IMG/VR virus record: IMGVR_UViG_3300032050_000004
Location: 124,001-188,000 of that record
From: a virus
DNA length: 64,000 nt
Direction: 5' to 3' (one strand)
The translations under genes and the position numbers were made by a program. The notes below the pieces were generated by a model. The model made no database searches. It saw nothing but the letters and a program-made list of their open reading frames with translations, and was not told where the DNA came from. This document shows, piece by piece, positions 6,492-38,501 of the stretch. Position 1 is the first letter of the stretch. Each line of letters begins with the position of its first letter.

Positions 6492-8111
6492 TCAATTTAT
6501 ATATTCAATTTCTTCTTCTGTATTTTGTTCAGTACATTCCATAAGATTTTTACCAATTTTCAAATCTACCTCAAAAAAATATTTTCCATTTTTTTCTAAT
6601 ATATTCTTTATATTCTCTAATAGTTCCTGCTCATCCGGATGTATATCAAATATGAAAGAATCATATACTTGATACATAAAATTAGATTTTCTGTCCTTTA
6701 ACAATTCTCTGATCTTAAATAACTTATCCACAACAATATCTGCAGCAATTGATTGTACATAATTATTATAGACCGCCCATTCTTTATTAGGATATATTAT
6801 TGTATTATAAGGGTTTATTATATAACCGCTTTTTTTAAATGAATCTGATATTTTTTTTGAATTTTGAATTATAGGATCTAAAAATTTCTTTATTTTATCA
6901 ATTAATTTTATACTTAATTTATTTTCTAAAAGAATCGATTTTAACTTATCGTTTCCGACACCGTATATTATAGCGTGATTAATTTGTTTACCTATTTTCC
7001 TCTCTTTTAAAGAAATTTCATCTTTAGAAAATATAATTTTTGATGTTTCAATATGCAAATCACTATTCTTTAATTTATCTATAAAAACCTCATCTTTAGT
7101 TAAATAAACGGATAGTTTAGTCTCAAAAGATATAAAATCAAATAAAACTATTTTACCATTTTTAAACTCAGAAATTATTTGATACCTGATTTCACTGTTT
7201 TTGGGAAGTAATTGTGGATTGAATTTTTTATCTGCACAATTTATTCTCCCAGTTATTGTTCTTTTGTTAGAGTATTTTAAAATTAATCTTTTATTTCCCT
7301 CAAAATTAATGTGTCTGCTAGATAACCAATCAGTTATAAAATCTTTTTTAAATAATCTTGAAAGGATATTTTGATTGTCTATTATAGAACAATTTAAAAT
7401 ATCATAGAATTTACTCATTAAAAAAACAAAATACTTTTCATTTAATGGATAAGGTGAAAATTTATGTAGACTGGTTTCAGTAATTGTAAAATTGTTACAG
7501 ATCCAACATATGTTTTCAAGAGTTATAAATTCTTTATTATCTTCAATTTTAAATGATTTTAAATTATCATAATTAAAAAATATTAATCTATATTTTTTTG
7601 AAATTGAATCGATAAAATTATTAGAACTTTCAAAAATGTAATCTATTGATGATAAATTGATTCCATAAAAACCCAAATCATTATAAACATAAATTACATT
7701 TTTTGAGAAAAAACAAAAATTAAGATTTTGGGAAAATATTTTATCTTGATGATTTGAAACATTGCCATCTATTATACAATCAAAATTTCTATAGTTTACA
7801 GGCAAATATTCTTCTAGAGATTTGATAATAAATTTTTTTATATCTTTTTCAGTCGTACCCTTCTCTTCATTATCTGAGAAAGTCCAAAATAAATTTTTTC
7901 TTATCTTTTTTTTTGATATTTTAATTCCTGAAAAATTATTTTTAATAAAATCCCACCCTATTATTAAAGTTGGTATTTGAAAATCTTCTTCAATGTTTAA
8001 ATCTTTATAAGAAAATATTCCAACACAATAATTATCAAATTCTAAAGAATATGAATTTATATTAGATTCAGATGTAAAAATTTGACAAAAATTTGTTTTT
8101 ATAATTTTCAT
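6492..8111 (-). CDS. Divergent family A DNA polymerase
   Basis: The C-terminal half carries the palm and fingers signatures of Pol I-type polymerases. TGRINCADKKFNPQLLP near residue 285 corresponds to the TGR..S..PNLQNIP block. Motif A is a degenerate LFDFISFETKL near 324 (usual DYSQIELR). Motif B is RKIGKQINHAIIYG near 375 and keeps the R, K, N and YG. Motif C is QVYDSF near 480, where the usual HDE is YDS. Both catalytic aspartates are present, so activity is possible. The first 250 residues are asparagine and isoleucine rich, and I find no clear 3'-5' exonuclease motifs. It heads the replication operon. A repair or accessory polymerase is plausible because a complete DnaE lies at 38.5-41.9 kb. 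Confidence 0.8.
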   Translation of the reverse strand: MKIIKTNFCQIFTSESNINSYSLEFDNYCVGIFSYKDLNIEEDFQIPTLIIGWDFIKNNFSGIKISKKKIRKNLFWTFSDNEEKGTTEKDIKKFIIKSLEEYLPVNYRNFDCIIDGNVSNHQDKIFSQNLNFCFFSKNVIYVYNDLGFYGINLSSIDYIFESSNNFIDSISKKYRLIFFNYDNLKSFKIEDNKEFITLENICWICNNFTITETSLHKFSPYPLNEKYFVFLMSKFYDILNCSIIDNQNILSRLFKKDFITDWLSSRHINFEGNKRLILKYSNKRTITGRINCADKKFNPQLLPKNSEIRYQIISEFKNGKIVLFDFISFETKLSVYLTKDEVFIDKLKNSDLHIETSKIIFSKDEISLKERKIGKQINHAIIYGVGNDKLKSILLENKLSIKLIDKIKKFLDPIIQNSKKISDSFKKSGYIINPYNTIIYPNKEWAVYNNYVQSIAADIVVDKLFKIRELLKDRKSNFMYQVYDSFIFDIHPDEQELLENIKNILEKNGKYFFEVDLKIGKNLMECTEQNTEEEIEYIN

Positions 8112-8154: not shown

Positions 8155-11100
8155 TTAACCTGTCATACCTAATTTTTTCAACATTGCAATTAATTTAGGA
8201 GTTGGTGGCGGGTCAACGTGACTTGCACCCTTAGATGCAGCGTGGGCAAAAATTCCAAATTCAGTATATTCTATTTTATTTGCTTTCACATTACTTCCAG
8301 CAGCCGGTTTTGAATTCCAGCCCCATACATAATATGGATTTTTTCCTTGTATTGCAGCTTTCATTTTTGGATATCTTCCTAAAATTTCAGTACAAAGGTT
8401 GTAAGTAGCAGTTATTTGTGCATCAGTAAATTCCATGAATTCACTGTATCCACAATATTTGTAATCTAATGTGCAGTAACCCGGATTAGGCGTACCACCA
8501 TAACTAGCTTTTCCAACTGGTGCTACAGCATCATTTGAATATACGACTCTTTGTTCAGGCCCTGCCGGACCTTTACTTTTTACTCCAAAATGAGCACAAA
8601 TTTCAATACCTATACCATGTGCATTCCAATTATTACCATGAACCGATCTTATATCTTCTGGTATACCTGTTACTCTAGCTCCAGTCCAATCCACAGCATA
8701 GTGAATACCACCTTGATTGAATTCTTTATCACATGCACCTACACCATCACAAGTTCTTTGAGCACAACCAGTATAGCCCCAGCCATCAGTAATATGTAAA
8801 GTTATAGATCTTACTTCTCGTTTTTTAAATTGTCTTTCTTTACCTGTATGGATTGCAATTTTATTTTTTCCTCTTGTTACAACTGTACATTCATTAGACG
8901 TTCCCTGATTAATCCTATCCCCATCATTGCTTGCAGAAATATCTGTGTTTGTTGAAGAAATTTGTGGAGCACCTTGTGGATATAGTGCATTTAATAATCC
9001 ATATACTCTAGTTCTATAACTTGAAACGTATTCTCCATCTATACCAGCTGCACCATTAATTGTTAAACCAACTTTATTAATAGCTTTAATCAATTCCTCC
9101 TTTGAAGAATCAAGTGCTGGCATATATTGATATCTATTTTTTCCTGAATGAATATTTATAGCTTGACCTAATAAAATTTGTGAACTAAATAGTTCGTCCC
9201 AATCAGCATTTGTACTTCTAGTCAATATTATTTCTTTGTTTCCATTATAAGGAGCTGCTTGCCAAATTCCTTTATATTTTTTTACAATTGTATCATTTCC
9301 AGTATAACTTAAAACCCAAGTAAGTATTTTTTCATAATTGCTTCTCCAAGTGGTTTGAATTAAACCACGACCACTAAATTTATAAAAATCTGATTCATTT
9401 ATAAATGTTGCAGGAGTTGTTCTTGCTGCTTCTTTAATATTACTTGGAAACAAACTTTTTGGAAAACTTGTTCCTTTCCATGATGGGTCATTTGAATTTT
9501 TAGTATTTTTATCATTTCCTAAAGGCTTATTTGCATGAGCTGATATAAAATTAGCATCACTAAACAAATCTCCAGAAGTTTTATTATAATCTCTATTATA
9601 TTTATAAGCATATGCAATACCCGGATTTGTACCGTTATCAAGTGAATTCATGCCTTCTCTCACACTTGAAAACTTACCACCTGTCTCGCCATATATTATA
9701 CAAAATAAACATACAAATTCAAGAAAATTTATACCTCCAGTACCATATTCGGACCAAGTAACAGGTATAATTGTTTCCCAACACTTATTCCAATTTGCAG
9801 AATCAACTTTTCCTCTATTGTACATTGATGCTTTTCCGACAACTTCTGCATTTACCCAAGTTACAAAATCAGTATACTTATTGCTAGTATATGTTTTTAT
9901 TACAGCGTTAATTTCAGCAGGATTCCTAAGTTTTACATCTTTTAATTTTTTCAAAAGTTCTATATTTAATCCTTCTCCGAAATTTCCTCCTCCACTACCA
10001 CCATCTCCACCACCTCCGAATGGAGTGATTGTTCTTACGCTTCTTTTAGTGATAGGCATAATTAATGCAAAATTTCCCCCATTTCCAATTTTCATTTTCA
10101 TGGCTGAAATTTCTGTTTCCATATTATTAGGAGTTAATTTATGCTGAACTTCTAAAACCCAATATAGACCAGTAAAAATAGGTAAACCATCAATAGCTAG
10201 ATTCATGGTTGGAAAAATTTGAGCATTACCAAGAATATCTAAGCTTATTTTATAACTTCTTCCTTGCATTACAGCTAACATTGAACAATCGAACCCTTTC
10301 TTTTTATTTTGATTTTGATTGTTAACAATATCACTAGTAGCTTGTAAACTTTCAGATGTAACTTTATTATCGTCGGTGCCAGCTTTTACTGATTTAAGAA
10401 AAACATTATTAGGACTACCAAATTGAAAGGCTATTATATCTGTTTTTAAATTGTCTAAAGTTTTTAGAAAATTTTTATCTGGATAAATAGGACTATTATC
10501 ATTTTTGGTCAATCTATTTTCAGGTGTTGGTGCCCAAATAATTGAAAGTGCATTTCTACCTACTGCATTGCTATAATCTATATTTGGCTGGGGTTTAAAT
10601 AAATCTTTTAAATCACTGGTAAAACCTGCTGGTATAGGTTGTAATAAAAAGTTATTTAACTGACATATGTTTTGCATCATATTCAGCGTAGAAGTAGAAG
10701 TGTTATTTTCCAATAAGGGATCTGTATTAATAATAGCATCCCTTATATCCACTGCCGGATTATCTATAACAAGTGGATAATTGAAATTTAAATAGAATGC
10801 AGATGTACCATCAGTACTTCTGTATTTTTTCTCCAACACTGTCCTTAAATTAACGTCAGTTCCATCTGGTAATGCATCACTATTTTCTGTAGTAGCTAAA
10901 GAAATCCAAGCTTGACAAATATGGTGAAACTGTGTATATACTGCATTTATTTGTCCATCATCTCGTGAGTACGGCTCAACGGCACCGACGGTCACAATTT
11001 CTGTAGGAGTTTCACCTCTCGAAACAGCATCTTTATTTTCTGCCTCTTGTTTATCTTTTAATCTTTTTTCTTGTTCTTCTTCAGTTCCGGAAGTTAAGTT

Positions 11101-13374
11101 CAAGATTTTACTACAATAAAACCATAGATTGCTCCTAACTGTTTCATTTTTTAGACTTGTAACATAATCTGCTGGTGATGATAATTGTGTTTGTGAAACT
11201 AACCTTACTAAATAATCCTCTTTTTGTGCTTGTTCGTATCCAGAAATGGTTTGACCAGTTATTACTGGTAAAATTAAACTATCCAATGATTTATAAGTTG
11301 GCGTGGGAGCATTCACCATTTCCGCATAATTGATAAATACTCCGTATTTTGCTTCAGTTGGTGGATTATATTCTACTTTAAAAAATTGAAAATTCGGATT
11401 TTTTACTTTCTGAGGCATTTGTGTATCAGAAGATGGATCTCCATTTAATTGATCCACATCTAAAGGTGCATTTTTATTTCTAATATATGCAACAATTTCT
11501 GCTTTACCACCCTTATTTAAACATGAGTTTGCACCTGCAGCTTTGCTAGTCAATTTAGCTAATACATCTTTTGGATTATGATACATGACTCCATTCTGAA
11601 ACATGGAAACACAAACTAAACTTTTTGGATCTGAATTCAAAAATATTTCCTTATTTGTGGATGCTAAATCCATTTTTTCAAAATAACTAGCAAAATAATC
11701 TTGATAAGTTAAATTTGGATTATTTTTTGTTTTATCTGTAAATTCCTTTGTAAGTTCTCCTTTGCTATTAAAAATTTGTTTTACTTCCTCTGCAAATGTT
11801 TTTAAAGTTGTTCTGTCAGTTCCTTTTAATTTAAGGACTGCGTCAGAAAAATTTTCATATTCAGCATCTGTTAAGTTTGTTTGAGCTACTGCTAATGTAT
11901 TGAAAGCGTATCCGCAAGATGCTAAGCCTGCCCTTTGTATTAGATTGGTTATTATCTTATCAACACTTTGTCCCAAATATGGATTATTTTTTACGTGTTC
12001 AGCATTCGTTAATCTTTTTGCAATTTTTTCTCCTTCTATTGCAGGTTGGTCAGTAATTGCATTATTTTGATCAGATGCTTCTTGAATTATTGTTTCTGCT
12101 TGTTGTACACCTTCATATAAAGCTTGACAAAAATCTTCAACTTTTTTCAATTCTATTGGTGCCTGTGACCAAGGTTTTTGCTCACCAAATGCAGAAGTTT
12201 GCCCTAAATTATTTTCTTCAATTAAAGGATAATAATTTCCAAAAATTTCGTTGTTTGTAGGTCTTGATGTGTCTGCGTTATAGCCACTAATTCCACCCTC
12301 TAAAATATATCCCAGTATATAAGCACAATCACCAGCGAGTCTGGTCATCACATTATAGATCGTTTGAGTATCAATTAAAATATCTTCAACACTACTGTAA
12401 CCTTGAGCACTTGAGGCTTTGGTTATAGCATTTAAATTTGAAGTTATAATTGTTTTTGCATCTTCTATTTGTTTTTTTCCTTTGTCCGATTGTGTAAAAG
12501 CACTTAATGATGGTATGGTTGATTTAAACTCTATAGTAGTTGGAGAATTTATACTTGCAAGTATAGAATTACCTATTACTTCTAGTGATGAGTCAATTAT
12601 TGTATAATCTTTACCCTTAGGATCTTTTGTGTTAATATTAAATGTGACACCAGTAAATCCAGCAGAAGTCAAAGACTCGTCAGGACTTATTGAATCAAAT
12701 TTAAGTGTCCCCTGATTATAACTAGTTGCTATTGAAGTTGGGTCTCCAGCTAAAATAGTCAAAGTATCTCTTTGTAATTTGTATTTATCTTCTACTTGCT
12801 GTATTTTTTGTTTTATTTCAATTCCATTTTTTGCTATCTCTATGATAGAAGAATTTCCTTCAGAACCTTCAGTATTCTCTCCAAATTTATCTTTCAATTT
12901 TGCTACTGCAAAAAGATATTGATAAGGTATATCTCCAAAAAACCCAAATACATTAGGAATAAATTCGGCTTTTATTTCATAACTACCATCAGAAGATTGA
13001 TAAGTAGTCTTAACAGATTTTACTTGCAATAAAAAATTTACTGGTTTACCAACATAACCTTTTATGTATAAATTAAATTTTGGATATGGTAATTGGAATA
13101 AAATATCAAATTTGAATCTTTCATCTCTGCTATAAACCAAGTTACCATATAAATCTTTAAATGTAATATTTACAACTGGTTGTAAATTTGGTTTTATATC
13201 TATATCTAAACTAGTGATTCCAAATCCTAAATTTTCAGTAAATGCTTGAATTATATAAGTGTTTTTACCTGAAAAATCTTTTTTACCACCGCCAATAGGT
13301 GTAGCTTCAAGATAAAAATCTAGAGTAAGGTCTTGAGGTCTAATATCACTATCAACTGGTACTACTAAAGGCAT
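8155..13374 (-). CDS. Baseplate hub-like protein with fused GH19-type lysozyme and amidase domains
   Basis: A 1739-residue virion protein. The first 1110 or so residues are beta-rich and look structural (N-terminus beginning MPLVVPVDSDIRPQDL). A glycine linker near 1120 leads to a chitinase/lysozyme-like GH19 domain (about 1150-1440) with the catalytic-type IIYGETGG and YKFSGRGLIQTTWRSNYEK. The last 230 residues form a zinc N-acetylmuramoyl-L-alanine amidase of the PGRP/Ami_2 type: ITLHIT, GGIHYAVDWTGARV, SVHGNNWNAHGIGIEI and a C-terminal HVDPPP. The protein would cut both glycan and peptide bonds at injection, as T4 gp5 does with one domain. It starts 1 base from the LysM-like baseplate gene, supporting a baseplate location. 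Confidence 0.85.
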   Translation of the reverse strand: MPLVVPVDSDIRPQDLTLDFYLEATPIGGGKKDFSGKNTYIIQAFTENLGFGITSLDIDIKPNLQPVVNITFKDLYGNLVYSRDERFKFDILFQLPYPKFNLYIKGYVGKPVNFLLQVKSVKTTYQSSDGSYEIKAEFIPNVFGFFGDIPYQYLFAVAKLKDKFGENTEGSEGNSSIIEIAKNGIEIKQKIQQVEDKYKLQRDTLTILAGDPTSIATSYNQGTLKFDSISPDESLTSAGFTGVTFNINTKDPKGKDYTIIDSSLEVIGNSILASINSPTTIEFKSTIPSLSAFTQSDKGKKQIEDAKTIITSNLNAITKASSAQGYSSVEDILIDTQTIYNVMTRLAGDCAYILGYILEGGISGYNADTSRPTNNEIFGNYYPLIEENNLGQTSAFGEQKPWSQAPIELKKVEDFCQALYEGVQQAETIIQEASDQNNAITDQPAIEGEKIAKRLTNAEHVKNNPYLGQSVDKIITNLIQRAGLASCGYAFNTLAVAQTNLTDAEYENFSDAVLKLKGTDRTTLKTFAEEVKQIFNSKGELTKEFTDKTKNNPNLTYQDYFASYFEKMDLASTNKEIFLNSDPKSLVCVSMFQNGVMYHNPKDVLAKLTSKAAGANSCLNKGGKAEIVAYIRNKNAPLDVDQLNGDPSSDTQMPQKVKNPNFQFFKVEYNPPTEAKYGVFINYAEMVNAPTPTYKSLDSLILPVITGQTISGYEQAQKEDYLVRLVSQTQLSSPADYVTSLKNETVRSNLWFYCSKILNLTSGTEEEQEKRLKDKQEAENKDAVSRGETPTEIVTVGAVEPYSRDDGQINAVYTQFHHICQAWISLATTENSDALPDGTDVNLRTVLEKKYRSTDGTSAFYLNFNYPLVIDNPAVDIRDAIINTDPLLENNTSTSTLNMMQNICQLNNFLLQPIPAGFTSDLKDLFKPQPNIDYSNAVGRNALSIIWAPTPENRLTKNDNSPIYPDKNFLKTLDNLKTDIIAFQFGSPNNVFLKSVKAGTDDNKVTSESLQATSDIVNNQNQNKKKGFDCSMLAVMQGRSYKISLDILGNAQIFPTMNLAIDGLPIFTGLYWVLEVQHKLTPNNMETEISAMKMKIGNGGNFALIMPITKRSVRTITPFGGGGDGGSGGGNFGEGLNIELLKKLKDVKLRNPAEINAVIKTYTSNKYTDFVTWVNAEVVGKASMYNRGKVDSANWNKCWETIIPVTWSEYGTGGINFLEFVCLFCIIYGETGGKFSSVREGMNSLDNGTNPGIAYAYKYNRDYNKTSGDLFSDANFISAHANKPLGNDKNTKNSNDPSWKGTSFPKSLFPSNIKEAARTTPATFINESDFYKFSGRGLIQTTWRSNYEKILTWVLSYTGNDTIVKKYKGIWQAAPYNGNKEIILTRSTNADWDELFSSQILLGQAINIHSGKNRYQYMPALDSSKEELIKAINKVGLTINGAAGIDGEYVSSYRTRVYGLLNALYPQGAPQISSTNTDISASNDGDRINQGTSNECTVVTRGKNKIAIHTGKERQFKKREVRSITLHITDGWGYTGCAQRTCDGVGACDKEFNQGGIHYAVDWTGARVTGIPEDIRSVHGNNWNAHGIGIEICAHFGVKSKGPAGPEQRVVYSNDAVAPVGKASYGGTPNPGYCTLDYKYCGYSEFMEFTDAQITATYNLCTEILGRYPKMKAAIQGKNPYYVWGWNSKPAAGSNVKANKIEYTEFGIFAHAASKGASHVDPPPTPKLIAMLKKLGMTG

Positions 13375-13375
13375 A

Positions 13376-13678
13376 TTATGAATTTCTATTTGCTAATACT
13401 TTATTATTGAATTCTGTGATTACTTCACTTAATGGATTTGGAACTCTTATTACTGCACCATTCGGAATATCAAACTCCATATAATAATTTGGATTAGCTA
13501 ATAATATAATCCAATAAAGAGTATCATCACCATACGCTTCTGATGCTATCCTATCTAATCTAGTCTTATTTGAATTATAAGTTACATATATATCAGTTGT
13601 TCTTTTACTAATTAATATTTTAGGAAAAGATTTCATTTCTCCGTTAAATGCAAGTTGTGAGTATCTTGAGAAAGCCAT
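13376..13678 (-). CDS. LysM-like baseplate wedge protein (gp53-like)
   Basis: A 100-residue protein with the compact LysM-type pattern seen in T4 gp53 and phage tail protein X: RLDRIASEAYGDDTLYWIIL, then LANPNYYMEFDIPNGAVIRV, ending in a proline-rich segment. In T4, gp53 completes the wedge and fixes neighbouring wedges in the baseplate rim. Size is smaller than T4 gp53 and nearer to tail protein X. It stops 1 base before the hydrolase-bearing hub gene. A TATTTATT box lies 28 bases upstream of its ATG, so transcription may begin here as well as from upstream. Confidence 0.75.
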   Translation of the reverse strand: MAFSRYSQLAFNGEMKSFPKILISKRTTDIYVTYNSNKTRLDRIASEAYGDDTLYWIILLANPNYYMEFDIPNGAVIRVPNPLSEVITEFNNKVLANRNS

Positions 13679-13714: not shown

Positions 13715-16700
13715 TTATGCAACATTTTCAGTTAGTAGAGGATTTGCTGCTTGATCTAGGTTTTGTGTTATTAGTATATTGTTAGTAGTTGGTGCATTTG
13801 GAGTTACGTCAGAATCTGCTTTTTTAACCTCACCAGTTGCTATATCTTGATCAGGTGTATCATTTAATATTCCAAAGAATCCAGTTTCATCACTTGCCAA
13901 TGGAGGTGCCAAGCTTGGATTGATACTCGCACCATATTTACCAAGCAATTTAAAGCTGAGAGTTACTGAAACCATTAAAGGTTGCACACCATCAGTTACC
14001 AAACCATTTTCTTCTCCAAAACCATCTAACGTCCAACTATTTTCTTTATAATCATAATCTACACTATCAAAAATCACATAGTGATCAACCCAATCTCCTA
14101 ATCTCATTTTACATACTGGGGGATTAGTGAAATTAAATCCTGTTTTTTCTGATGATGATTTGGAAGGTTTAGTCAATTTTTCTAAAAATTTCATTCTGTT
14201 TCTGAAATCAACTTTTGATCCCGAAAAGAATGCTGGTTGAAATAATAAATCTTTTTTCATTCCAGCCAATCTTTGAGTTGTATCTGAAAGAATACTCACT
14301 ACATCACCGTATTGTCCATCAGGAACTCTAGCTGTGTCTAATAAGTTTTTATATACGTTATCAAAACCTTTTCTTTGTTCTGAATATGGATTAGTAGTTG
14401 GTCTAAAAGATTTATCTAAATCATCTATTTTTTGTTGTAGAGATAATTGTTGTTTAATTAAATCATTTTTTTTCTGTTGTAAATCACTAATATCTTGATT
14501 TACTTGATTTGTTTGATTAATTTCTGCAGTAACAACATTAATTTGTTCATCAATATTAATTAATTGTTGTTTTGTGGCTGCAAGTTCAGCATCTACTTGA
14601 TCTTGAGTTCCCAATCCGCTTACTGGTTCATCAAAAACCATAGTATCAGTAAAGTTTTTATCAAATGTTTCTACATATGTTCTGAAATTTTCCCAGTCAA
14701 CTCCCATGTCTACAGTTTGAGCATAATCTGTGAGAACAACAAAAGAAATTGTACCAGATCTGTCACCCTTTGAATAGGTATATAATGACTCAGGTCTTCC
14801 AAGGAATGTATGTTCTGTCCAAGTTGCTTTTGAGTTATGTGAAAACTTTTCTATGTATGGCGGGAAATACATAACTCTATCATTAGCGGTATCCGGTATA
14901 GCCAAGTTTTCAATTGAGAAAATTAAATTTTTAGTAGACGCAGGCCCAGTATAAGGATTTACTATAGTGTATCTTTGTTTTGCTCTTAGTGGAGCACCAA
15001 AATTATCATAACCAATAATGAATTCTTTGTTTGATTGAGATAAATAGTTTTGATTTAATAATGAGTTTTCTCCATTTCTAATAGTGTTTATTATGTTGTG
15101 AACACCTCTTTTTCTTTTTCTAAAATCCACTTCCAATTGTTGTGTTGGAAGTGTTTGTGCCATCATTGAAATATCTGTACCTAATTCATCTGCAGGTGTT
15201 CCTGCTAAACCAATCAAAGGTTTAAGAATTAATTCAGGAGAATTGGAAAGATACAATCCATTATTTGCTACTATTACTTCTATGGGAACAGAGTTTGTTG
15301 CCTCTTTTCTCCCTTTAACCATATTGGCAAAATAATTAGGTATATATGGTGTAGGCGAAAGACCATTCAGTACATAAAATGCATTCCCAATATCACCCCA
15401 TCTTCTTCCCTGAAGACCCATAACATTCATTTCAAGTTGTCTTTGCTGAGCAAAGAAAACCCAATCTCCGTTACCTCTTAAATTTTGATTAAATGCAGGA
15501 CCTAACAAATTCCAATGTGGAAAATCAGTATCAGGGCTATCTAATGTTGCTATAAATTGATTCTTTAGCTTATTAAGTGCTCTAATTATTGCTCCGTTAA
15601 TATCAAGATTTGATACTCCTAAGAAAACGCTGGTCCCTCCAATAAACACATTTGTGCCCAAGGGACTTCCATCCGGATCCGGATTATTTTTTGCTAGTAA
15701 ACTTAATCTGTATGGTTCAGCTTCTTCATCAAGATTTACAAATTGAGGTTGATTACTTGCTAATAAATTATTTCTTTCTTGATCAGCGATTCCTTCTATA
15801 TCAATTATTGTAGCTTGATTGTTTGCTAATAAATTTGCTCTTTGAGGAGCAGCTACTGTATCAAGGTCAATAAATTGAGCAACATTAAATGCTAATAAAT
15901 TTTGTCTTTCAGATTGAGCAACTTGATCAAGATCTATTAATGTTGGTATATTGAATGATAATAAATCTAATCTCTCGACTGCAGCTAATGAATCCAAATC
16001 AATTATACTTGGAACATTGCTGGAAAGCATATTAGTTCTTATGGGTGTTGCTACACTATCTAGATCAATAAACTGTGGTTGATTAAATGCTAATAAATTA
16101 TTTCTTGAACTTATAGCATTAGTATCTAAATCAATAGTTGATGGTTGATTTTTTGAAAGTAAATTATTTCTTTGACTAATAGCTTCGGCATCTAAATCAA
16201 CAAATTGTGGTTGATTAAATGCTAATAAATTAGTTCTTAAACCTTGTGCTTCTGCATCTAAATCAACTAATAAATTTGATACATTTTTAGCTAATAATAA
16301 TAATCTTTCTTGTTGTGCTTGAGAATCTAAATCAATTAGCAAATCAGACGTATTATTTGCTAAAAGACCATATCTTATTGATGTAGCTAAGCTATCTAAA
16401 TCAATGGTTGTTTCTAAATTTTTAGAGAGTTGATCACTTCTGTTTCCGGCTGCTATTTGATCAAGGTCAAATAATCTTTCTACATTAGCATTTAATAACG
16501 ATGTTCTTATTGGAAGAGCTGTTGCATCTAAATCAATTTGTAAAATTCTAGAATTCGCTGCCTCATATTGTTTTCTTATTGGCTCTGCAACTGCATCCAA
16601 ACTTCCAAAAACCGGAATATTGAATGCTAATAAATTTGCTCTTAATGGCACCGCAACCTGATCAAGATCTTGAACTCTTATTGTTTTATTTTTAGCTAAA

Positions 16701-19700
16701 ATATCATCTCTGTTTTCAGCAGCAATTGCATCAAGATTTATTATCTTAATATTTTTATTGCTATTGAGTGCATTTTGTCTTGGCTCGACAGAGATCTGAT
16801 CTAAATCAATAAATTGCGGTTGATTGAAACTTAATAATGTTGTTCGAGATTGTGTTGCTAATCTCTCGATATCAATAATATTTTCAACATTTTTCTGTAA
16901 AATATCTGAACGATTTGCAGCAGCTATTGCATCTAAATTTATGATAGCAATTTCTGCATTTTTCGCTAATAAATCTTTTCTGTAAGGTGCAGCTTCTTTG
17001 TCTAAATCAGGAAATTGAGGTTGATTTTTTTCAGTTAATAATTTTCTTAAAATTTCCGCTTCTGCGTCTAGATTTATGCTAGATGCTATGTTTTTACTTA
17101 AAATGTTATTTCTTTGAACAGTTGCAGTAGCATCTAAATCAATTTGCTTAGTATCATTTTTAGCTAACGTATTAGTTCTAATAGGTAAAGCAATCGTATC
17201 AAGATCAATAAATTGATTTTGGTTGAATGATAATAAACTATTTCTTAAAGGTTCTGCATTAGCATCAAGATCAAATAATGTAATTTCGTTTTTACTTAAT
17301 AAATTCTTTCTTTCCGAACTAGCTAAAATATCTAAATCAATTAAACCATAAACATTTTTAGTAACTAGATTATTTCTAATTTCATTTGCAAGTCTATCTA
17401 GATCTATTACTTTAGTTTCGTTCTTTGATAAAAGTATACTTCTTTCTTGAGAAGCTAAATTATCTAGGTTTATTATTTCATAAACATTTCTTGTAAGTAA
17501 TGTGTTTCTTATCGATAGAGCTAAAGCATCTAAATCAAATTCTTTTATTTGATTTTTTTGAATTAGATCTTCTCTTTGACGTATAGCCAAAGTATCTAAA
17601 TCTATAAATTGAGCTTTATTAAAAGCTAATAATTTATTTCTTAATTTATTTGTATCCTTTTCTAGGTCGACTGGTAAAATTTCATTGAACTTCAATAAAG
17701 ATGTTCTATTAATAGTTGCCAGCTCATCCAGATCAAAAAGTTTATCTAAATTTTTTGATATTAATCTATTTCTGATTTCTGTAGCCTCTGCATCTAAATC
17801 AAATAATTTAAATACATTACTACTTAAAAGCAATTTTCTGTATTGTTCAGAAATTAAATCTAAATTTATTCTTGTTTCAACATTTTTTGATAATAAATCA
17901 TCTCTTTCTTGAGCTGAAATTTTATCAAGATCGATACTTTTACTTTCGTTTTTACTTAATGTTAAAGTTCTGATTTGTAATCCTAACTTATCCAAATCTA
18001 TAGGGGTATCAGAATTAGATGCAAGTAATTTATTTCTAATATCTTTTGCTTCAGCATCTAAATCAAAATATGTTATTTGATTTTTACTAACTAAATTTCT
18101 TCTAATATCTAATGCTAAGGCATCTAGATTGAATAGTTCTTCTACATTTTTATTAAGAAGAGAATTTCTAATGACACCAGCTTGTTCATCAAGTAAACCA
18201 TTTGCTTCAGTATATTTGTTTTTACTGATAAGGTTTTCTCTTTGAACATTTGATATTTTTTCAATATCAATTAAAGCATCGATGTTTTTAGAAATTAATC
18301 TATTTCTGACAGTCAGTGCTTCAAATTCAATATCTATTATTTTACCTTTGTTTTTACTTAATAGATTAGTTCTTGTAATCTCTATCAATTCATCCGTACC
18401 CACAGATGTATATCCGGGATCATTAGATTTTAAAAGGTTTTGTCTATATAAATTTGCAAGTTTATCTAAATCATTTAAAGAAGGTACATTTTTACTTTTT
18501 AATTCTTCTCTGAATTGTGAAGCATAAAGGTCTAGATCTAAACTTGCATATGATATGTTTTTTGAAAGAGAATTGGTTCTTGCTTTTAATGAAATTAAAT
18601 CTAAATTAGCTTCTACTACATCGTTCTTAGCTAATAAATTTCTTCTAATCTCTAAAGCATTAGTGTCTAATGTAGTATCAATTATTTTATTGATATCATA
18701 ATTTTTAGTTAGAAGATTAGTTCTGGTTATTCTAGCAATTGTTTCCAGTTCTTCCGAAAAATCTTCTTTATTTTTAGCTAAAAGATTTTTTCTCGGATTT
18801 AAAGCAATTTCCTCAAGAATTCTATTAAAAGTATCGTCATAATTATTTTTACCCAATAATTGTTCACGATAAGGAATAGCTGCTAAATCTAAATCAATTA
18901 ATTTTTTAAGATTTCTAGTGATAAGTCTTATTCTTTCTGGTGATGCAACTTCATCAAGACTAATATCTCCGAAATTCTGATTTTTAGAGAGTAATGGCAA
19001 TCTTATTTTACTGGATAATTCATCTAATTCACCGTTTGCTTCAGTATAATAATTTTTACTTAATAAATTAGATCTCTGATTTATAGATAAAATATCTATG
19101 TTAATTAAATTACTTACGTTTTTAGCAATTAGACTATTTCTAAGAGGTATTGCTTCCTCATCAATATCTTTATATACTGATTGATTTTTGGCTAGTAATT
19201 CTTTTCTATAGTTTTCTACTTCACTTTCTAAATTTATAGAATTTAAATTCTGATTTGTATTTAAAAGATTTAATCTCTGGATTTTTGCTTGTTCATCAAG
19301 ATCTATTAATTGATTTTGATTTCTTGCAAGTAAATTTTTTCTTAATATTTCAACCTCTTCAAAATTAGATACAATATCTACAAATTGATTATATTTTAAA
19401 ATATTATTTCTTTGTATTTCTCCTAATTTATCTAAATCAATTTCTTTATTTTGATTCTTACTCAATAAATTAAATCTTTGATTTATTGATAAATCATCTA
19501 TTCCAATTAAATTACTTACATTTTTTGAAATAAGCCTATTTCTACTAGATATGGCTTCTTCATCAAGATCAACAGTTTTAGTTTGATTTTTACTTAATAA
19601 ACTTGATCTTATTAGATCACTATTAACATCATTATCCGAAATAATTTCATTTTTACTAAGAAGAGCATTCCTATTATTTTCAGCAAGTTTATCTAAATCA

Positions 19701-21457
19701 AATAATTTTATATTATTTTTATTTATTAGAGATGTCCTTATCTTTTCAGATACTTCATCTATAGAAAATGCATCAATTTGGTTTTTATTTAACGACGCAT
19801 TTCTAAAATCTTTAGCGATACTATCAAGGTCAATTAAATCATTTTGATTTCTTGCTAATAATGATTTTCTTGTATTATCAAAATTTTTATCTGCAGAATC
19901 TATAACTTGATTTTTTGCTACAAGAGTAGTTCTAATTCTATTAGCAATTAATTCTAAATCCTCTCTATTTAAATTTTCGTTTTTAGCTAATAAGTTTAAT
20001 CTTTGAATTATTGAAGATTCGTCAAGTAAGTTGTTTACACCTCCCTCAAAAGTGTTTTTTGAAAGAAGATTGTTCCTAATTTCACTAGCCAATCCTTCTA
20101 TATCAAAAACATTCTTAAGATTTTTACTCAAAATTCTGAGTCTTTCTTTAATAGCAGTTTCTTCTAAAATGTTTCGTTCGGAATTTTCATTTTTAGCCAG
20201 AGTGCTATTTCTTATTATTGCAGAAATATTATCTAATTCACCATTTGCTTCTGTATAGTCATTTCTCTTTAATAAATTTGATCTTTGATTTATAGATAAC
20301 AAATCAATGTTTATTAAATTAGATAAATTCTTGGAAATTAATTTATTTCTTAAGGTTTCTGATTCCTGATCTAGATCCTTAGGGTTGGTTTGATTTTTTG
20401 CTAATAAATTTTTTCTTATCTCTTCCTGATCGGCTAATTCATTCGAAACGTTTTTTGAAATTTGATTGAATTTAAGCTGATAATCTCTATTTTCTTTAGA
20501 TAGTTCATCTAAATCTGTAACTTTATTTTCATTTTTACTAAGTAATGAAAGTCTGTAATTATTATAATCATTACTATTATCTATACTTTCATCATAATAA
20601 TTTTTATTTAGAGTATTATTTCTTATTTCTGAAGCAAGAAGATCAAGATTTATTTCTTCAAAATTATTTTTTGCTAGAAGAAATTGCCTTACTACTGAGA
20701 AATCATTATTTTTTACATTATCAATAATTTGATTTTTTGAAAGCAGACTACTTCTAATTTCTTCGGATGACTTATCAATATCAAAAGAGTTGAAATTACT
20801 ATTTTTTGCTAATAAATTATTTCTTTGAACTTCTGAACTAGAATCTAATATCTGATTAGTTCCTTCGTAATTATTTTTATTTAACAGAGCATTTCGATAA
20901 TTTTCTGCCGCCTTTTCAACATCAGCAATATCAGTCAAATTTCTACTTAATAAATTAAATCTTGTAACATTAGCATATCTTTCTATGCTATCTGGATTGA
21001 CAATTTCATTTTTTGGTAGCAAATTCCTTCTTGCAGCTGCTCCGGTTCTATCTAATTTACCATAAAGCTGAGATTCATTTTTAGCTAAAAGTGATAATCT
21101 GGTCTTTTCAGATAATTCTTCTAGATCTTTATCAGTATTTAATAATATATTTTTTGAAATAAGGGTTTCTCTAATTTCTTTAGAAATTTTATCTGGATCA
21201 ATTATATTATCAACATTTTTTGATAGTAAAACAGACCTTAAATATTGAGAATTTTCATCTAAATTGGCCGAAATAGTTTGATTTCTTGCAAGATTATCCT
21301 TTCTTATCTTGTAAGCGTCGTATAAATTCTTGGGATTAGGTACATTTTTACTTATCAGTATTTGCCTTACTGAATCTGTATAATTACCAAAAAACTCCTC
21401 AAATTTGACCCTTTGTCTATATTCTTCTTCAGACTCAAAAGGAAAATTCTCAATCAT
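13715..21457 (-). CDS. Giant repeat protein with about 85 copies of a 22-residue motif and a C-terminal tail/baseplate domain
   Basis: A 2580-residue protein starting at ATG 21457; a TTG one codon upstream is less likely. Residues about 17-1925 are tandem repeats of about 22 residues with consensus IDLDxxAxxxRxxLLxKNxx. N-terminal copies vary in length and sequence, while those near the C-terminal end are almost strictly 22. The last 650 residues are unique: RWGDIGNAFYVLNG, a coiled coil around QQKKNDLIKQQLSLQQKIDD, and a beta-rich end with DGVQPLMVSVTLSFKLLG. The section IEKFSHNSKATWTEHTFLGR resembles tail-tube-initiator/baseplate proteins (gp48/gp54-like) loosely. It sits between the tape measure and the LysM-like gene. 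I do not recognise the repeat family; a long fibre or internal ruler is possible. Confidence 0.85.
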   Translation of the reverse strand: MIENFPFESEEEYRQRVKFEEFFGNYTDSVRQILISKNVPNPKNLYDAYKIRKDNLARNQTISANLDENSQYLRSVLLSKNVDNIIDPDKISKEIRETLISKNILLNTDKDLEELSEKTRLSLLAKNESQLYGKLDRTGAAARRNLLPKNEIVNPDSIERYANVTRFNLLSRNLTDIADVEKAAENYRNALLNKNNYEGTNQILDSSSEVQRNNLLAKNSNFNSFDIDKSSEEIRSSLLSKNQIIDNVKNNDFSVVRQFLLAKNNFEEINLDLLASEIRNNTLNKNYYDESIDNSNDYNNYRLSLLSKNENKVTDLDELSKENRDYQLKFNQISKNVSNELADQEEIRKNLLAKNQTNPKDLDQESETLRNKLISKNLSNLINIDLLSINQRSNLLKRNDYTEANGELDNISAIIRNSTLAKNENSERNILEETAIKERLRILSKNLKNVFDIEGLASEIRNNLLSKNTFEGGVNNLLDESSIIQRLNLLAKNENLNREDLELIANRIRTTLVAKNQVIDSADKNFDNTRKSLLARNQNDLIDLDSIAKDFRNASLNKNQIDAFSIDEVSEKIRTSLINKNNIKLFDLDKLAENNRNALLSKNEIISDNDVNSDLIRSSLLSKNQTKTVDLDEEAISSRNRLISKNVSNLIGIDDLSINQRFNLLSKNQNKEIDLDKLGEIQRNNILKYNQFVDIVSNFEEVEILRKNLLARNQNQLIDLDEQAKIQRLNLLNTNQNLNSINLESEVENYRKELLAKNQSVYKDIDEEAIPLRNSLIAKNVSNLINIDILSINQRSNLLSKNYYTEANGELDELSSKIRLPLLSKNQNFGDISLDEVASPERIRLITRNLKKLIDLDLAAIPYREQLLGKNNYDDTFNRILEEIALNPRKNLLAKNKEDFSEELETIARITRTNLLTKNYDINKIIDTTLDTNALEIRRNLLAKNDVVEANLDLISLKARTNSLSKNISYASLDLDLYASQFREELKSKNVPSLNDLDKLANLYRQNLLKSNDPGYTSVGTDELIEITRTNLLSKNKGKIIDIEFEALTVRNRLISKNIDALIDIEKISNVQRENLISKNKYTEANGLLDEQAGVIRNSLLNKNVEELFNLDALALDIRRNLVSKNQITYFDLDAEAKDIRNKLLASNSDTPIDLDKLGLQIRTLTLSKNESKSIDLDKISAQERDDLLSKNVETRINLDLISEQYRKLLLSSNVFKLFDLDAEATEIRNRLISKNLDKLFDLDELATINRTSLLKFNEILPVDLEKDTNKLRNKLLAFNKAQFIDLDTLAIRQREDLIQKNQIKEFDLDALALSIRNTLLTRNVYEIINLDNLASQERSILLSKNETKVIDLDRLANEIRNNLVTKNVYGLIDLDILASSERKNLLSKNEITLFDLDANAEPLRNSLLSFNQNQFIDLDTIALPIRTNTLAKNDTKQIDLDATATVQRNNILSKNIASSINLDAEAEILRKLLTEKNQPQFPDLDKEAAPYRKDLLAKNAEIAIINLDAIAAANRSDILQKNVENIIDIERLATQSRTTLLSFNQPQFIDLDQISVEPRQNALNSNKNIKIINLDAIAAENRDDILAKNKTIRVQDLDQVAVPLRANLLAFNIPVFGSLDAVAEPIRKQYEAANSRILQIDLDATALPIRTSLLNANVERLFDLDQIAAGNRSDQLSKNLETTIDLDSLATSIRYGLLANNTSDLLIDLDSQAQQERLLLLAKNVSNLLVDLDAEAQGLRTNLLAFNQPQFVDLDAEAISQRNNLLSKNQPSTIDLDTNAISSRNNLLAFNQPQFIDLDSVATPIRTNMLSSNVPSIIDLDSLAAVERLDLLSFNIPTLIDLDQVAQSERQNLLAFNVAQFIDLDTVAAPQRANLLANNQATIIDIEGIADQERNNLLASNQPQFVNLDEEAEPYRLSLLAKNNPDPDGSPLGTNVFIGGTSVFLGVSNLDINGAIIRALNKLKNQFIATLDSPDTDFPHWNLLGPAFNQNLRGNGDWVFFAQQRQLEMNVMGLQGRRWGDIGNAFYVLNGLSPTPYIPNYFANMVKGRKEATNSVPIEVIVANNGLYLSNSPELILKPLIGLAGTPADELGTDISMMAQTLPTQQLEVDFRKRKRGVHNIINTIRNGENSLLNQNYLSQSNKEFIIGYDNFGAPLRAKQRYTIVNPYTGPASTKNLIFSIENLAIPDTANDRVMYFPPYIEKFSHNSKATWTEHTFLGRPESLYTYSKGDRSGTISFVVLTDYAQTVDMGVDWENFRTYVETFDKNFTDTMVFDEPVSGLGTQDQVDAELAATKQQLINIDEQINVVTAEINQTNQVNQDISDLQQKKNDLIKQQLSLQQKIDDLDKSFRPTTNPYSEQRKGFDNVYKNLLDTARVPDGQYGDVVSILSDTTQRLAGMKKDLLFQPAFFSGSKVDFRNRMKFLEKLTKPSKSSSEKTGFNFTNPPVCKMRLGDWVDHYVIFDSVDYDYKENSWTLDGFGEENGLVTDGVQPLMVSVTLSFKLLGKYGASINPSLAPPLASDETGFFGILNDTPDQDIATGEVKKADSDVTPNAPTTNNILITQNLDQAANPLLTENVA
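15690..21400 (-). repeat. 66-base coding repeat array (22-residue unit)
   Basis: About 85 tandem coding units of roughly 66 bases. Each encodes a short IDLD strand-like element followed by a helix-like AxxxRxxLLxKN. Higher-order blocks are visible: a TEANGxLD variant recurs near 20240, 19035 and 18200, each preceded by an ISKN(V/L)SNLI-type pair of units, and NQPQF(I/V)DLD variants recur every two to three units between 15.7 and 17 kb. The boundaries are approximate. Confidence 0.85.
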
Positions 21458-21472
21458 CAATTATAGTTTATC

Positions 21473-21514: not shown

Positions 21515-24500
21515 TTAAGTTCTATTATAATTAGCCTCGACAATTATCTGCTGCAACTGTCTTCCGTTCAATTTCAAGTCTATTTGTATAGGTTTTATCT
21601 GAACAACTTGTGTTCCAGCAGTCTCTCTACCTCCTGCTACTGCACCCTCTCTTCTTGTGGTTGTTAAATCTGTTCCTAAGGCTGCAGCTGCTTTTGCTCT
21701 CTGTATTAAACTTATTTCATTATTACCCCCCGGTTTTGGAGCAGTAGCTACAGTTTTTAGTCTATCTTTTTCTTTGTTGTAATCAGCCATAGATTTGGTT
21801 GAAATTCCAAAGCTTGAAGAAACATTATTTAGAGATCTTCCTAATACATTCAAGCTAGATGCCATTGAAATTATACCTGAAGAAGCAGTCAAACCTCTGG
21901 TTCCAAATGATATTAACGTAGATGTTAATCCACTAATAGTTGGAAGGGCACTTGCGAATAAAGGCCAAGGAACTAATGAAAAAGATGTAAATCCACTTGT
22001 AGCTGATTTTAAACTCTTTCCTAAAATCATTAATGCAAATCCTGCAGCAATTAATTGAGGTGCTACTATTCCTATCATAGAAAACCTCATAATTGGTGCA
22101 ATTAAAGAATTAATTATAGGAACTTGAGCTAAAATACCATCAATTTTTAAATTAGCTATTGATGCTAACGATCTGAATATTCTTGTGACTCCGAGAACTG
22201 AGAAAATTGCTGGAATAATAAATGGTATCATCATAGACCATCTAACCAATCCAGAAATCATAGTACTCGCTGTAGCACTTAATAGACTAGCAAGTGTAAT
22301 CAATGGTACAGGAGATAGAGTAACTATACCTAATAAAATTCTGCTTAATTTTCTAACCCCTATAGCACTTACAATTGCCGGACCTGTAAAAAATGCAACT
22401 GCAGAAAATTTGATCAAACCTTTTATCAATCTACCAGATGTTGCAGTAAGAACTGTACCTAAACTTAATAAATTTTTGAAAAATATTGTTTGTATTTGAT
22501 TTATATTTTTTGTTAAACTTACAAGGCCTTTTGCAGTCAAAATTGCGGGTGCAACAAAAGGTGTAATTGATGAAAATTTGACTATTGCTTTTAACAAAGG
22601 AATACTTCTAAAACCTAGAACTGTTGACAATTGTAATAAATTTTTATTAAAAATTGTCTGTATTTGATTTATTACTTGTGTAAGAGTTACTAAACCTCTA
22701 GCAGCAGATATTGCTGGTGTTGTAACTGCTCTAATTCCTGCAAATTTAAATAGTGCTTTACCTAATTTCCAACTTGTAGAACTTGTAACACTAGCTAATT
22801 TATTTAGATTTTTTGCAACAATAGGTTGAATTTGATTTATAATCTTACTAAGTTGAACTAATCTGTTTGCAGATGTAATCGCTGGACTAACAAGTGCTCT
22901 TATTCCTAAAAATTTAACTAGACCTTTTACTATAGCACCGGAGGTATTATTTAAAACTGTTCCCAATTGCTGCATATTTTTTAATGGAACAAAAACAACT
23001 TGACTTAAAAATTTACTTATTGGAACTAAACCTCTTGCAGCTGATATAGCAGGTATTACAAATGGCATACCGGAGCTGAGTTTTTTAATTCCAACTACAA
23101 TTGAAGAAGATGTTGTTGCTAATACAAAGCCTATATTGAACATTTTAGCAAAATTAAGAGGAACTGTTCCTCTTAATAATCTTGTAATAAATACCAAAGA
23201 CTTTGCAGCAACAATTGCAAGTCCAGCATAATAACCAGCTCTACTGAAAGTTATGAACCCTCTGCTCAAATTAGGAGAAGCATAATATAAAGTATCACCT
23301 ATATTGATTAATTTTTTAGAATTAATATGTAGGGCATTTTTTAAACTATTTGTTACTGATACTATGCCTTTTGCTGCAAAAATAGCACCGATGACACTAG
23401 AACCCATTTTAGCAAATGTTTTAAAACCCGCAGTCAAAACTGGAGAAATAAATGCTAATGAAAATGCTATGTTGCTTAATTTTTTTGTATCTATTGGAAC
23501 AACCTGAGAAAGTTGCTTTGTAATAAATTTAACTCCTTCGGCTACTGCAATTGCTGGTAAAATTGGAACTGATGAAGCTGCAAACTTTGTTAAACCCCAA
23601 AAAAGTTTTCCAGAAGTTTTAGATAAAGTAGAGGCTAAATTTATCAAACTCGAAGCGTTTATCGCAGGCATAGATGATAAATTTCTGGAAATACTGTTGA
23701 TACCTTTGGCAACAACTACTGCAGGACCAATTACAGTTGTAATACCAGCAAATTTCCCTAAACCTTTAGTCAATTTCCAAGCAGTACTACTTAAAGTTGT
23801 TGCTAATTGTTTTAATGCACTTTGACTTACTACAGGTAAATTTGATAGTGTTTTTGTGATTTTCAATAAACTATTAGCAGCTTTTACAGCTCTATTTGCA
23901 AGAAATCCAGCTGCTGATAATTTTAGTAGACCTTTTGATATTGGTCCCATGGTCGAAGTCATCACACTAGCTATGTTCAATAATTTTCCCGCATTTATCG
24001 GAAGTGTCATTAATAATATAAATGTTACTCTTCTTAGACCGGAAGCTGCTTGTGCAGCTTTATTTGCAACAGATGCTGCATTACTTAATTTAGATAGACC
24101 TTTAGCAATTGGTTCGGAAGTATTTGATAAAATATATGCAAGAGTCAAAAATCTTGTTGGGGATAAAAATGGTACACCTCTCAAAAATGTTGCTGTTTTA
24201 AAAATATTAAGAGCAGCGTTGGATGCAAGTTTTGCAAATGGTGCTGTTAATCCAATTTTCTTTAATCCATTAGACAGAGGTCCAGACATCGTAGCCAAAG
24301 TAACTGCAGTAGTAATTAATTTTATTGGATTCAACATTGGAATTCCTGCAAGATATTTAGTAGCTTTTAAAATAAACAATGATGACATTGAGGCTAACAT
24401 TGCTACTGATGTCAGTAAAGATATTTTGAATAAACCTTTGGCCAAGGGAGTAGACATTGCTGATAACGTTAACGCAGTTGTCAATAATTTTACTGGACTC

Positions 24501-27500
24501 AAAAGTGGTATTTGATTTAATAGTCTAACAGTTTTTAGAATAAAAATTGAAGATATTGATGATAATGCAGCAACGGGACTTAATAATGCTATTTTTTTGA
24601 GTCCCATTGATAATGGTGTAGAAATTATAGAAAGAGTTATAGCGTTTGTAATTAAAATTCCGGGATTTAATACTGGGACTCTAGATAAAATATTTGTAAT
24701 TAATAAAATAGATTTAGCAGCTATCAATGCTGGTACAGCAAAAAATCCTATAAATCCTAATTTTTTCATACCTTTCGAAAATGCTTGAGCCGAAAGAGAA
24801 ATTGCAACTCCAGTCATCACCAACTTTACTGGATCTAGAGGAGTAACATTAGCAAGAAATTTAGTTATTATTGAAATAGATTTAGCTGCAATCATAGCGG
24901 GTATTGCTAAGAAACCAATGAATCCTAATTTTTTTAATCCTTTTGAAAATGCAGAAGAAGATAAACTCAAAGCATTAGCTGTATTTATCAAAATTGCCAT
25001 GTTCAATGGAGTAATTTTAGATAAAGAACTAGTTATACTAACCAAAGATCTAGCAGCATAAATTGCAGGTATTGCAAACACTCCTAATAACCCTAATTTA
25101 AATAAACTTTTTCCAAATTTACCAGATACGGTATTTAGTATTGAAGCGGTTGTTATTAAAATTGCAGCATTTAAAGGTGTGACTTTAGCAAGTGTTTTAG
25201 TTACTGTCAATATTCCAAACGCTGCTAATATTGCAAATGGAGTAAAAACGGAAAGTGCTCCGAGCTTGATTAAGCTTTTTGTAAAAGGCCAAGCAATTTT
25301 TGATAATACTGAAGATGTGACTATCAAAAATGCAGGATTCAACATTGGAACTGCCTTCAACATTTTTGTTACTCCTAAAATACCCGCAGCAGCTACTAAA
25401 GCTAATGGAGTAAATGCTGCTAATGGTTGTAATTTTAAAAATGCTTTTGTAAATGGCCAAACAACTTTAGAAACTGTTCCTGCAGTTGTAGTTAATGTTT
25501 TTGCATTAAGTGTAGGCACAGCTTTTAACATTTTTGTTACACCTAAAATTCCCAATGTTGCTAGTAACGCTAAAGGAGTAAGAACTGAAACTAATCCTAA
25601 TTTTAACATTGCTTTTGCAAACTTACCGGAAGTAGAAGCCATCGTTGAAGCTGTCATTCCCAAGTTTTTTGGGTTTAATACTGGTACATTATTTAATAAT
25701 CTAGAAATTAAATTTATTCCAGCTGCTGATACAACGCCTAAAACAACAAATGGACTAACCAAACCTAACTTTATAAGTCCAAAAATAAAAGATGCAGAAA
25801 CTGCTGCCAATGATTGACCAAATGCTTGCATTTTTTTAAGGTCAACAATTTTTACATCTGCTAACATTCTACTTATTAAATTAATTGCTCCAGCTGAAAC
25901 AATTGCTAGAACAGTGAAAGGACTTACTAAGCCTAATTTTATCAACCCTTTGATCATAGCAGAACCAACCTTGCCCATACTGTCACCAAAGTTTTGCATT
26001 TTTGCGAGATCAATTATTTTAATTCTTGATAATGCTTGTGAAATTATATTTATACTTACAGCAGAAGCCATAGCTAATACTGCAAATGGTGAAACCAAAG
26101 CCAATTTAACTAACCCTTTTATCATTGACATTGATATTAAAGCAAGACTTTGACCAAATTGACTTACTTTTTTCACATCAACAGCAGAAATATTTTTTAA
26201 TGCTACGGCAACAACCATCAAAGCACCAGCTGAAACCATTGCCAGTGCAGCAGGACCAGCTACCAAACCAAGTTTAGTAAGTCCCCAAGCAATAGAGCCC
26301 ATTGAATCTCCTATCTGAGAAATAATTTTTGGATTCACACCTTTTGCTGCACCTAATCCACGTAGAAAATATCCAAATGCAATCATTGCCGGAGCAGCAA
26401 TTAAACCTGCAGCTCCAAAAATTAATAATGCAGGAGAAATTATAACTAAAGCTGCTGCTAAAGCAATTAACCCAGCTGCACCTTTAAAAGTGGCTCCTAT
26501 ATTTTTACCCATAGATATAATAGCTGGAACCAATATAGAAAATCCTTTTGCTGCTAAATAAACTGAAGCTCCAAGCATTAACATAGCAGCACCTAGAGCT
26601 AACAACGGTATTGCAGCAATAGAACTTGCAGTAGCAAGAATATAAACCATAGCAACAAAACCACCCATAACTATTGCAATTGCACCTAATGCTGCTCCTG
26701 CATTTTTAGCATTATTGAATGAATTAACTAAAGTTGCGAAACCTGTTGCAGCAAATTGAATTCCTTTCCCAATTAATAGCATTGCGATTCCCAAGGCAAC
26801 AAAAGCTGCAGCTAAAGATAAAATTTGAGCAGGATTTATTTTTGAAAACTGTTGCAACATTGTTGGAGGCGTTTTCATTCCTTTCATTTTTCCGCCGATG
26901 TCTGGGGTTTGTGTAGTTACCTTACTTGCTAATGTTTCTGTAGCTTTTTTACTTGCACCACCACCAACACCAGCAAAGGCAGATTTTATTTGTGATCCTA
27001 AACCAGACAACATTTTTAGAGGTGAAGTAATTCCTCTAAATAAAATACCTGCAAATTTTGCCATTGCTGAAGGCCCAAACGTTAACATAAGGATACCACC
27101 TAACAAAGCCATTGCTTTAACCCATTTACCAGTTTCAGCTCCAAATACTTTATCAATAACATTGCCCACTCTAACGAAAATTGCTCTCAATTTATCAAGG
27201 GCATGTTTCAACATTTCTAAATAAGGTTGAAACATTGTGAATGTGGCTAATACCTCGTTAGCTAAATTATTTAATTTTTCTTCTAAGGCTTGTCTGCTCT
27301 TCGCAGCTTTCTCCATATTTTCAGCATCTGATTTTGATTTATTCATCATTGCTTGAATACTTCCCTTAGAAACATTTTTTAGATCTTGCATTCCCTCCAA
27401 CCCTTCAAATTTCCACTTGCCACCTTGTTTCACAGCTTTAGAAAGTAAAAAATCTTTTTCGTCATCACTCAATGCATTAAACACACCGGGTGGAATTGCC

Positions 27501-38018: not shown

Positions 38019-38501
38019 ATGTGTGGTTTTGAATCAATTAAGGATTTGGTAAAAAGTGCTTTTGGATTAGACCATATTTATACAAACACAGTAATCGCTT
38101 CAATAGGAGCTATATCAACATTTATAACATCATATATATATGATGATGCTCAAGCAATTTATGTATTACTCGGGTTTATAGCTTTTGATTCTTTGACAGG
38201 AATTTTAAAAGCTTTTAAACAAAATATATTTTCTTCAGCCAAATTACCCAGAATATTAGTTATTATGGTATTGTATGTTTCTTTGTTGAGTTTGGGTTGG
38301 AATTTGGCAAAAGTTGACGATATATTTAGTTGGTTACCGGGAACACTTTATTTTGGTTTTATTAGCACACTTGTAATTTCTATCATAGAAAACCTTCATG
38401 CTTTAAATGTAATTTCTGATGAAATATATAATCACATGAAGAAAAAAATGAAATTAGTCCAAGAAATATTTTTTGGGAAAGGTAAGTCAAGAAACGATTA
38501 A
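38019..38501 (+). CDS. Holin of the phage_holin_4 type
   Basis: About 160 residues from ATG 38019; in-frame GTG 38001 and TTG 37980 are alternatives. Three to four membrane helices are predicted: TVIASIGAISTFITSYI, AIYVLLGFIAFDSLTGILKA, ILVIMVLYVSLLSLGWNL and LYFGFISTLVISIIENL. The FDSLTGILKAFKQNIFSSAK core, with D-x-x-T-G-I and a basic loop ending in S-S, is the signature of the holin_4/toxin-secretion holin family. It would form the pores that trigger lysis. Its stop overlaps the stop of the convergent dnaE gene by four bases. Confidence 0.78.
   Translation: MCGFESIKDLVKSAFGLDHIYTNTVIASIGAISTFITSYIYDDAQAIYVLLGFIAFDSLTGILKAFKQNIFSSAKLPRILVIMVLYVSLLSLGWNLAKVDDIFSWLPGTLYFGFISTLVISIIENLHALNVISDEIYNHMKKKMKLVQEIFFGKGKSRND

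Follow-up and report, generated by a model that had tools for sequence, protein, structure and literature searches.

A giant 22-residue repeat array fused to a putative tube-initiator-like domain scales in unit number with the tape measure protein in a group of probably long-tailed phages

In the prevailing view, a single protein determines how long a phage tail becomes; this is the tape measure protein (TMP), of which T4 gp29 and lambda gpH are examples. As TMPs are mostly disordered in maps, ring-by-ring events between ruler and tube are hard to see. Length matching by a giant modular chain is a feature of nebulin in muscle thin filaments, which has one docking module per actin subunit. For tail-tube initiators we know of no tail-length N-terminal arm, and in the open-licence papers searched neither a second or dual tape measure nor a repeat-bearing tube initiator is described. 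Some TMPs evolve by gain or loss of 11-residue repeat units (PMC3271669). The T4 tail tube consists of 23 rings with a rise of 40.6 Å and 17.2 degrees per ring (PMC3004832). With the 590 residues of gp29 (CDS 118878-120650), this provides a yardstick of 25.7 TMP residues per ring.

The DNA analysed here (the window) is a stretch of 64,000 nucleotides, positions 124,001 to 188,000 of the 222-kb IMG/VR virus record IMGVR_UViG_3300032050_000004. The features relevant to the tail are the following.

8155..13374, minus strand: large baseplate protein, hub-like by position, with a C-terminal Amidase_2 domain (profile match)
13376..13678, minus strand: gp53-like baseplate wedge protein (Pfam PF11246, PHROG 7145)
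13715..21457, minus strand: repeat-arm gene, encoding 2580 aa when read from the ATG at 21457; an in-frame TTG is at 21460
13718..15673, minus strand: non-repetitive C-terminal domain of the repeat-arm protein (residues 1929-2580, ~650 residues; profile searches in IMG/VR)
13946..15025, minus strand: predicted tube-initiator-like beta-sheet core of this domain; a helical insertion lies at about 14405-14605 (AlphaFold, Foldseek)
15674..21397, minus strand: the arm, 85 units of 22-26 residues (residues 21-1928; iterative position-weight search)
21515..29032, minus strand: TMP, 2505 aa, assigned by position, length and repeat character, with no strong family match
21953..26815, minus strand: hydrophobic TMP modules with an exact 56-residue period (2 x 28; periodicity analysis), extent approximate

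Judged by its gene content, the tail of this virus is contractile: sheath proteins are encoded twice, and the gp19-like tube protein is 49% identical to that of an ordinary relative. The two different sheath genes are close together outside the window (G000:C1:209930-210424 and 212608-213114; 786- and 879-codon open frames), and the tube gene is at G000:C1:215757-216221. Duplicate functions also occur within the window: the adjacent genes 31613-32566 and 32584-33462 both match baseplate hub phrog_150, and two DNA polymerases are encoded (window 6492-8111 and 38498-41908), a short family A enzyme and a 1136-aa protein of PHROG 405.

The initial annotation of this DNA had described a giant protein with about 85 copies of a 22-residue repeat, and the iterative position-weight search retrieved exactly 85 units, while the shuffled protein gave a mean of 1.2 and a maximum of 4 matches. 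The unit consensus is [I/V/F]-D-L-D-x-x-A-x-x-x-R-x-x-L-L-x-K-N-x4, with Arg11 and Asn18 in all units of the first pass (83/83). Units are mostly spaced by 22 residues (54 times), less often by 23 (17 times) or 24 (7 times); toward the C-terminus they are nearly always exactly 22 residues long while they vary toward the N-terminus, as had been described initially. The same annotation had proposed that larger blocks were duplicated. TEANG-x-LD blocks are found at residues ~400, ~804 and ~1082 (about 20255, 19045 and 18210), and as two of these three have the longer flank INIDxLSINQRSNLL in common, block duplication within the arm is real.

The repeat had not been recognised as a named family, and it matches no described family profile in Pfam, PHROG or PDB. 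Neither the repeat nor the C-terminal domain has a Pfam or PHROG match (cut-offs 0.1 / 0.01), the repeat has no credible PDB sequence match, and the unit profile is absent from every other gene of this virus genome. In tblastn searches with the whole protein, with C-terminal domains of relatives and with one TMP, no relative was found among 50,697 phage records, nor was one found in GTDB genome contigs. Structure prediction of a repeat segment, which had been suggested as a check, resulted in a low-confidence string of helices (AlphaFold), each unit consisting of one 15-residue helix and a 7-residue linker. Foldseek found no match of this model among viral structures, which is unsurprising for a model of this kind. 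As the model has no confident packing between units, the arm is probably a chain which needs a surface to lie on.

The C-terminal domain starts with the conserved junction G-T-S-x-F-x-G-V-S. Profile searches of IMG/VR place its family in hundreds of contigs, with at least 588 matching stretches, and in the contigs inspected the genes are directly downstream of the TMP gene. The repeat-arm gene likewise adjoins the TMP gene directly downstream, which is the position of gp48 in T4 (gene order 29-48-54). The baseplate-like C-terminal domain and its place between tape measure and baseplate genes, with the TMP upstream and the gp53-like wedge protein downstream, were both noted initially and are supported. 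In the AlphaFold model, parts of the beta core have a pLDDT of 70-90 and the remainder is low. When this model was compared with PDB by Foldseek, the first matches were tube initiators and tube proteins of eCIS and phages (AlgoCIS, baseplate initiators of cyanophage A-1(L), Anabaena CIS, PVC), with a prob of 0.96-1.0 for the first eight but a best E-value of only 2e-3 and an rmsd >10 Å on a model of mixed confidence. Position and fold resemblance, the latter weak by E-value, suggest that the domain is tube-initiator-like. It would share with tail-tube initiators (T4 gp48 and gp54, A-1(L) gp18, those of Afp7/Alg7-type eCIS) the predicted beta core and the T4 gp48-like place after the TMP. However, hhalign did not link the domain by sequence to T4 gp48 or gp54 (Prob 0.2 and 0.1), and we therefore do not assign the domain to either family.

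Ordinary-tailed relatives have no array, and their TMPs mostly have 530-730 aa. A single FR-x-x-LL-x-[KR]-[NT] motif is found at most 70 residues from the N-terminus in 65 of 74 non-redundant ordinary relatives (median residue 13), while elsewhere the pattern has only 2 matches in 107,968 residues. Because of this location at the extreme N-terminus, the array is best read, from sequence comparison, as an ancestral N-terminal motif which has been multiplied. Arrays of the 22-residue type were seen only together with TMPs of at least 1002 residues. A different repeat occurs in a sister clade (L006, IMGVR_UViG_3300037520_000900, and relatives), which has about ten 53-residue units ending with KN-x-YGP at the N-terminus. 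Its TMPs are of normal length (605-724 residues), and there is no scaling of this repeat with the TMP. The clade has the same C-terminal domain with an OmpA-like insert, in some members with a proline/threonine-rich linker. In PDB, the C-terminal family profile had OmpA-like matches only, and these were rejected, as they originate from this insert, which is absent in the repeat-arm protein.

A few loci deviate individually. In L112 (11901-21213), the hub-like gene is present three times as tandem paralogues downstream of the repeat-arm gene. In L116, a stop located behind the arm divides the repeat-arm gene in two (756 + 570 aa), while it is intact (1362 aa) in L209, which has a TMP of identical length. 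In L220, the place after the TMP where the repeat-arm gene is expected is taken by another gene, which perhaps encodes a homing endonuclease.

It had been anticipated that copy number may vary between relatives, and this is the case: there are 84 units in L003, a 99%-identical contig, 99 in L005 and 24-31 in more distant members. Two size groups can be distinguished. The long pair consists of the window (85 units, TMP of 2505 aa) and L005 (99 units, 2900 aa), while the short members have 24-31 units and TMPs of 1002-1148 aa. Scaling between unit number and TMP length was first computed on 14 members and later on 26 distinct genomes (24-99 units), 12 of which were found via the TMP alone; in this TMP-based scan, an array was present in every locus whose downstream gene is readable to the junction. 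In a few members, gaps left by the search were filled by hand to complete the unit counts. Ordinary least squares gives 25.9 TMP residues per unit (r=0.9988) and phylogenetic contrasts give 26.1 (r=0.997), or 27.2 (r=0.98) when the largest contrast is left out. The very high correlation rests heavily on the two long members, but the 24 short members alone are still significant (21.5 TMP residues per unit, r=0.886, p=9e-9). As controls, neither the length of the downstream hub gene (r=0.35, slope 0.09) nor that of the non-arm part of the repeat-arm protein (r=-0.13) shows such scaling. The intercept is positive (about 320 TMP residues) and units are fewer than TMP/26, the short members having about 12 rings' worth of TMP without units.

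Since about 26 TMP residues per unit are so close to the 25.7 residues per ring of T4, we infer that one arm unit corresponds to about one tube ring, TMP length being used here as a proxy for tail length. In its length scaling the arm would thus resemble phage TMPs such as T4 gp29 and lambda gpH. It differs from them in being a separate and unrelated protein, a modular 22-residue array with a fused initiator-like domain which exists beside a normal TMP. No homology to TMPs was found (no TMP family match in Pfam or PHROG), and a separate TMP gene is located just upstream.

The two long members allow a closer comparison. Both TMPs have an exact 56-residue period with a 28-residue subharmonic, while TMPs of short members have little or no tandem periodicity. 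Between the window and L005, large TMP indels are multiples of 56, and the repeat region of the TMP differs by a net +392 residues (7 x 56). The arm differs by a net +14 units, which result from unequal changes (+16, -2, +1, -1), so that the indels in the arm sum to exactly twice the change in TMP modules (14 units versus 7 modules). If ~125 C-terminal TMP residues are assigned to the baseplate, 28 residues per ring result in 85.0 and 99.1 rings, in agreement with the unit counts of the two members, but this offset is fitted and the calculation is an illustration rather than a proof. The insertions in arm and TMP are at different places; as modules and units are interchangeable, colinearity is uninformative. 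L003 has lost one unit through a clean in-frame deletion of 69 bp, located at a direct repeat of 10 bp, while its TMP is unchanged, so that either a slack of one unit is tolerated or this is an assembly effect. The arm would share with the TMPs that evolve by 11-residue repeats (PMC3271669) that a tail-length protein gains and loses fixed units, but here the repeat is in a second protein and its 22-residue units are matched to 28-residue half-modules of the TMP.

We consider it rather probable that arms of a tube initiator span the tail with one unit per ring, either in the lumen or in the tube-sheath interface. The virus would then be a T4-like myovirus with a long tail, and the repeat-arm protein its tail-tube-initiator-like protein. 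The C-terminal domain of this protein would sit in the baseplate as a ring, presumably hexameric, on top of which the tube grows. If the baseplate is indeed where the initiator-like domain is located, the arm has to lead upward along the tail. From each subunit it would extend toward the neck, parallel to the TMP and with the C-termini of both proteins at the baseplate; in the cryo-EM structure of cyanophage A-1(L), the TMP C-terminus is at the distal end (PMC10966104). Each successive tube ring would receive one 22-residue unit, with its short helix, its invariant Arg and Asn and its linker, and the arm would advance along the tail by one unit for each ring, in the way that nebulin follows the subunits of actin. 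The comparison to nebulin is an analogy only, as there is no homology and both unit size and polymer differ. Most likely, the arm would strap or guide the rings of an unusually long tube, matching the TMP in length. This tube would measure about 345 nm if it has 85 rings, and up to about 395 nm when estimated from the TMP. For the short members, about 40-44 rings and a tail of 160-180 nm would be predicted. One unit spans at most about 46 Å (1.5 Å per helical and 3.4 Å per extended residue). On a helix with T4 geometry, this would restrict the arm to radii of about 70 Å or less, a range which includes the lumen and the tube-sheath interface. The outer sheath surface is therefore disfavoured, provided that the arm follows a T4-type helix.

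A less probable but serious contender is that the arms lie in the tube-sheath interface and serve sheath assembly or contraction, for example as tie rods, and have no ruler role at all. This would result in the same scaling with the TMP and is permitted by the geometry, and the restriction of arrays to TMPs of at least 1002 residues looks as if long tails needed reinforcement; however, the sheath touches the tube and leaves little room. Somewhat more doubtful is a placement in the lumen in which the arms coat hydrophobic TMP helices with one unit per 26-28 TMP residues, acting mainly on the TMP as a built-in chaperone or co-ruler while the tail is assembled, and exiting with the TMP at infection. 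The TMPs of the array-bearing clade are very hydrophobic (GRAVY 0.58-1.00 for residues 600-end), the 56/28-residue period of the window TMP matches two units, the genes of arm and TMP are adjacent, and the T4 lumen (40 Å) has room around a density of 20 Å (PMC3004832). Yet the arms of short members are polar and acidic and thus not obvious partners for hydrophobic helices, the TMP of A-1(L) is already a six-fold helical bundle (PMC10966104), and the channel might be obstructed by arms that are anchored to the initiator.

The initial annotation had left the choice between an extremely long tail whisker or fibre and a second ruler-like component. The latter is strongly favoured by the scaling at the T4 ring value and has the support of the comparative evidence, which the whisker has not. 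A whisker or fibre hanging from the baseplate would fit a protein in which a long chain of repeats is joined to a baseplate-type domain, but we regard it as highly improbable. There is no reason why the length of an external fibre should follow that of the TMP, and the same motif occurs singly at the N-terminus of ordinary relatives. No fibre-type domain was detected in the repeat-arm protein by PHROG or Pfam; none of the PHROG tail-fibre models match it, while many match window gene 44011-48276. Neutral expansion of two repeat-rich genes in a slippage-prone lineage, with an incidental match in length, is the least probable explanation: repeats do recombine, as in L003, but Arg and Asn have been retained in 83 units, the TMPs of short members have little or no tandem periodicity and yet contrasts give r=0.886, and the unequal changes in the L005 arm add up to exactly twice the TMP module change.

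If arms span the tail with one unit per ring, as we prefer, it may be speculated, with considerable reservation, that tail length is governed by two rulers, the TMP and the nebulin-like arms tethered to the initiator, with ring number being set or proofread in part by the number of units. Deletion of units would then shorten or stall the tail. A second modular protein which lengthens together with the TMP, by one unit for each stretch of TMP that corresponds to a ring, would represent a countable code, as the number of rings could be predicted from the sequence and counted in a micrograph, and the relatives provide a natural experiment that spans 24 to 99 units. The arm would offer a protein strap with a fixed, countable spacing, and it points to a way in which contractile tails could reach lengths of several hundred nanometres.
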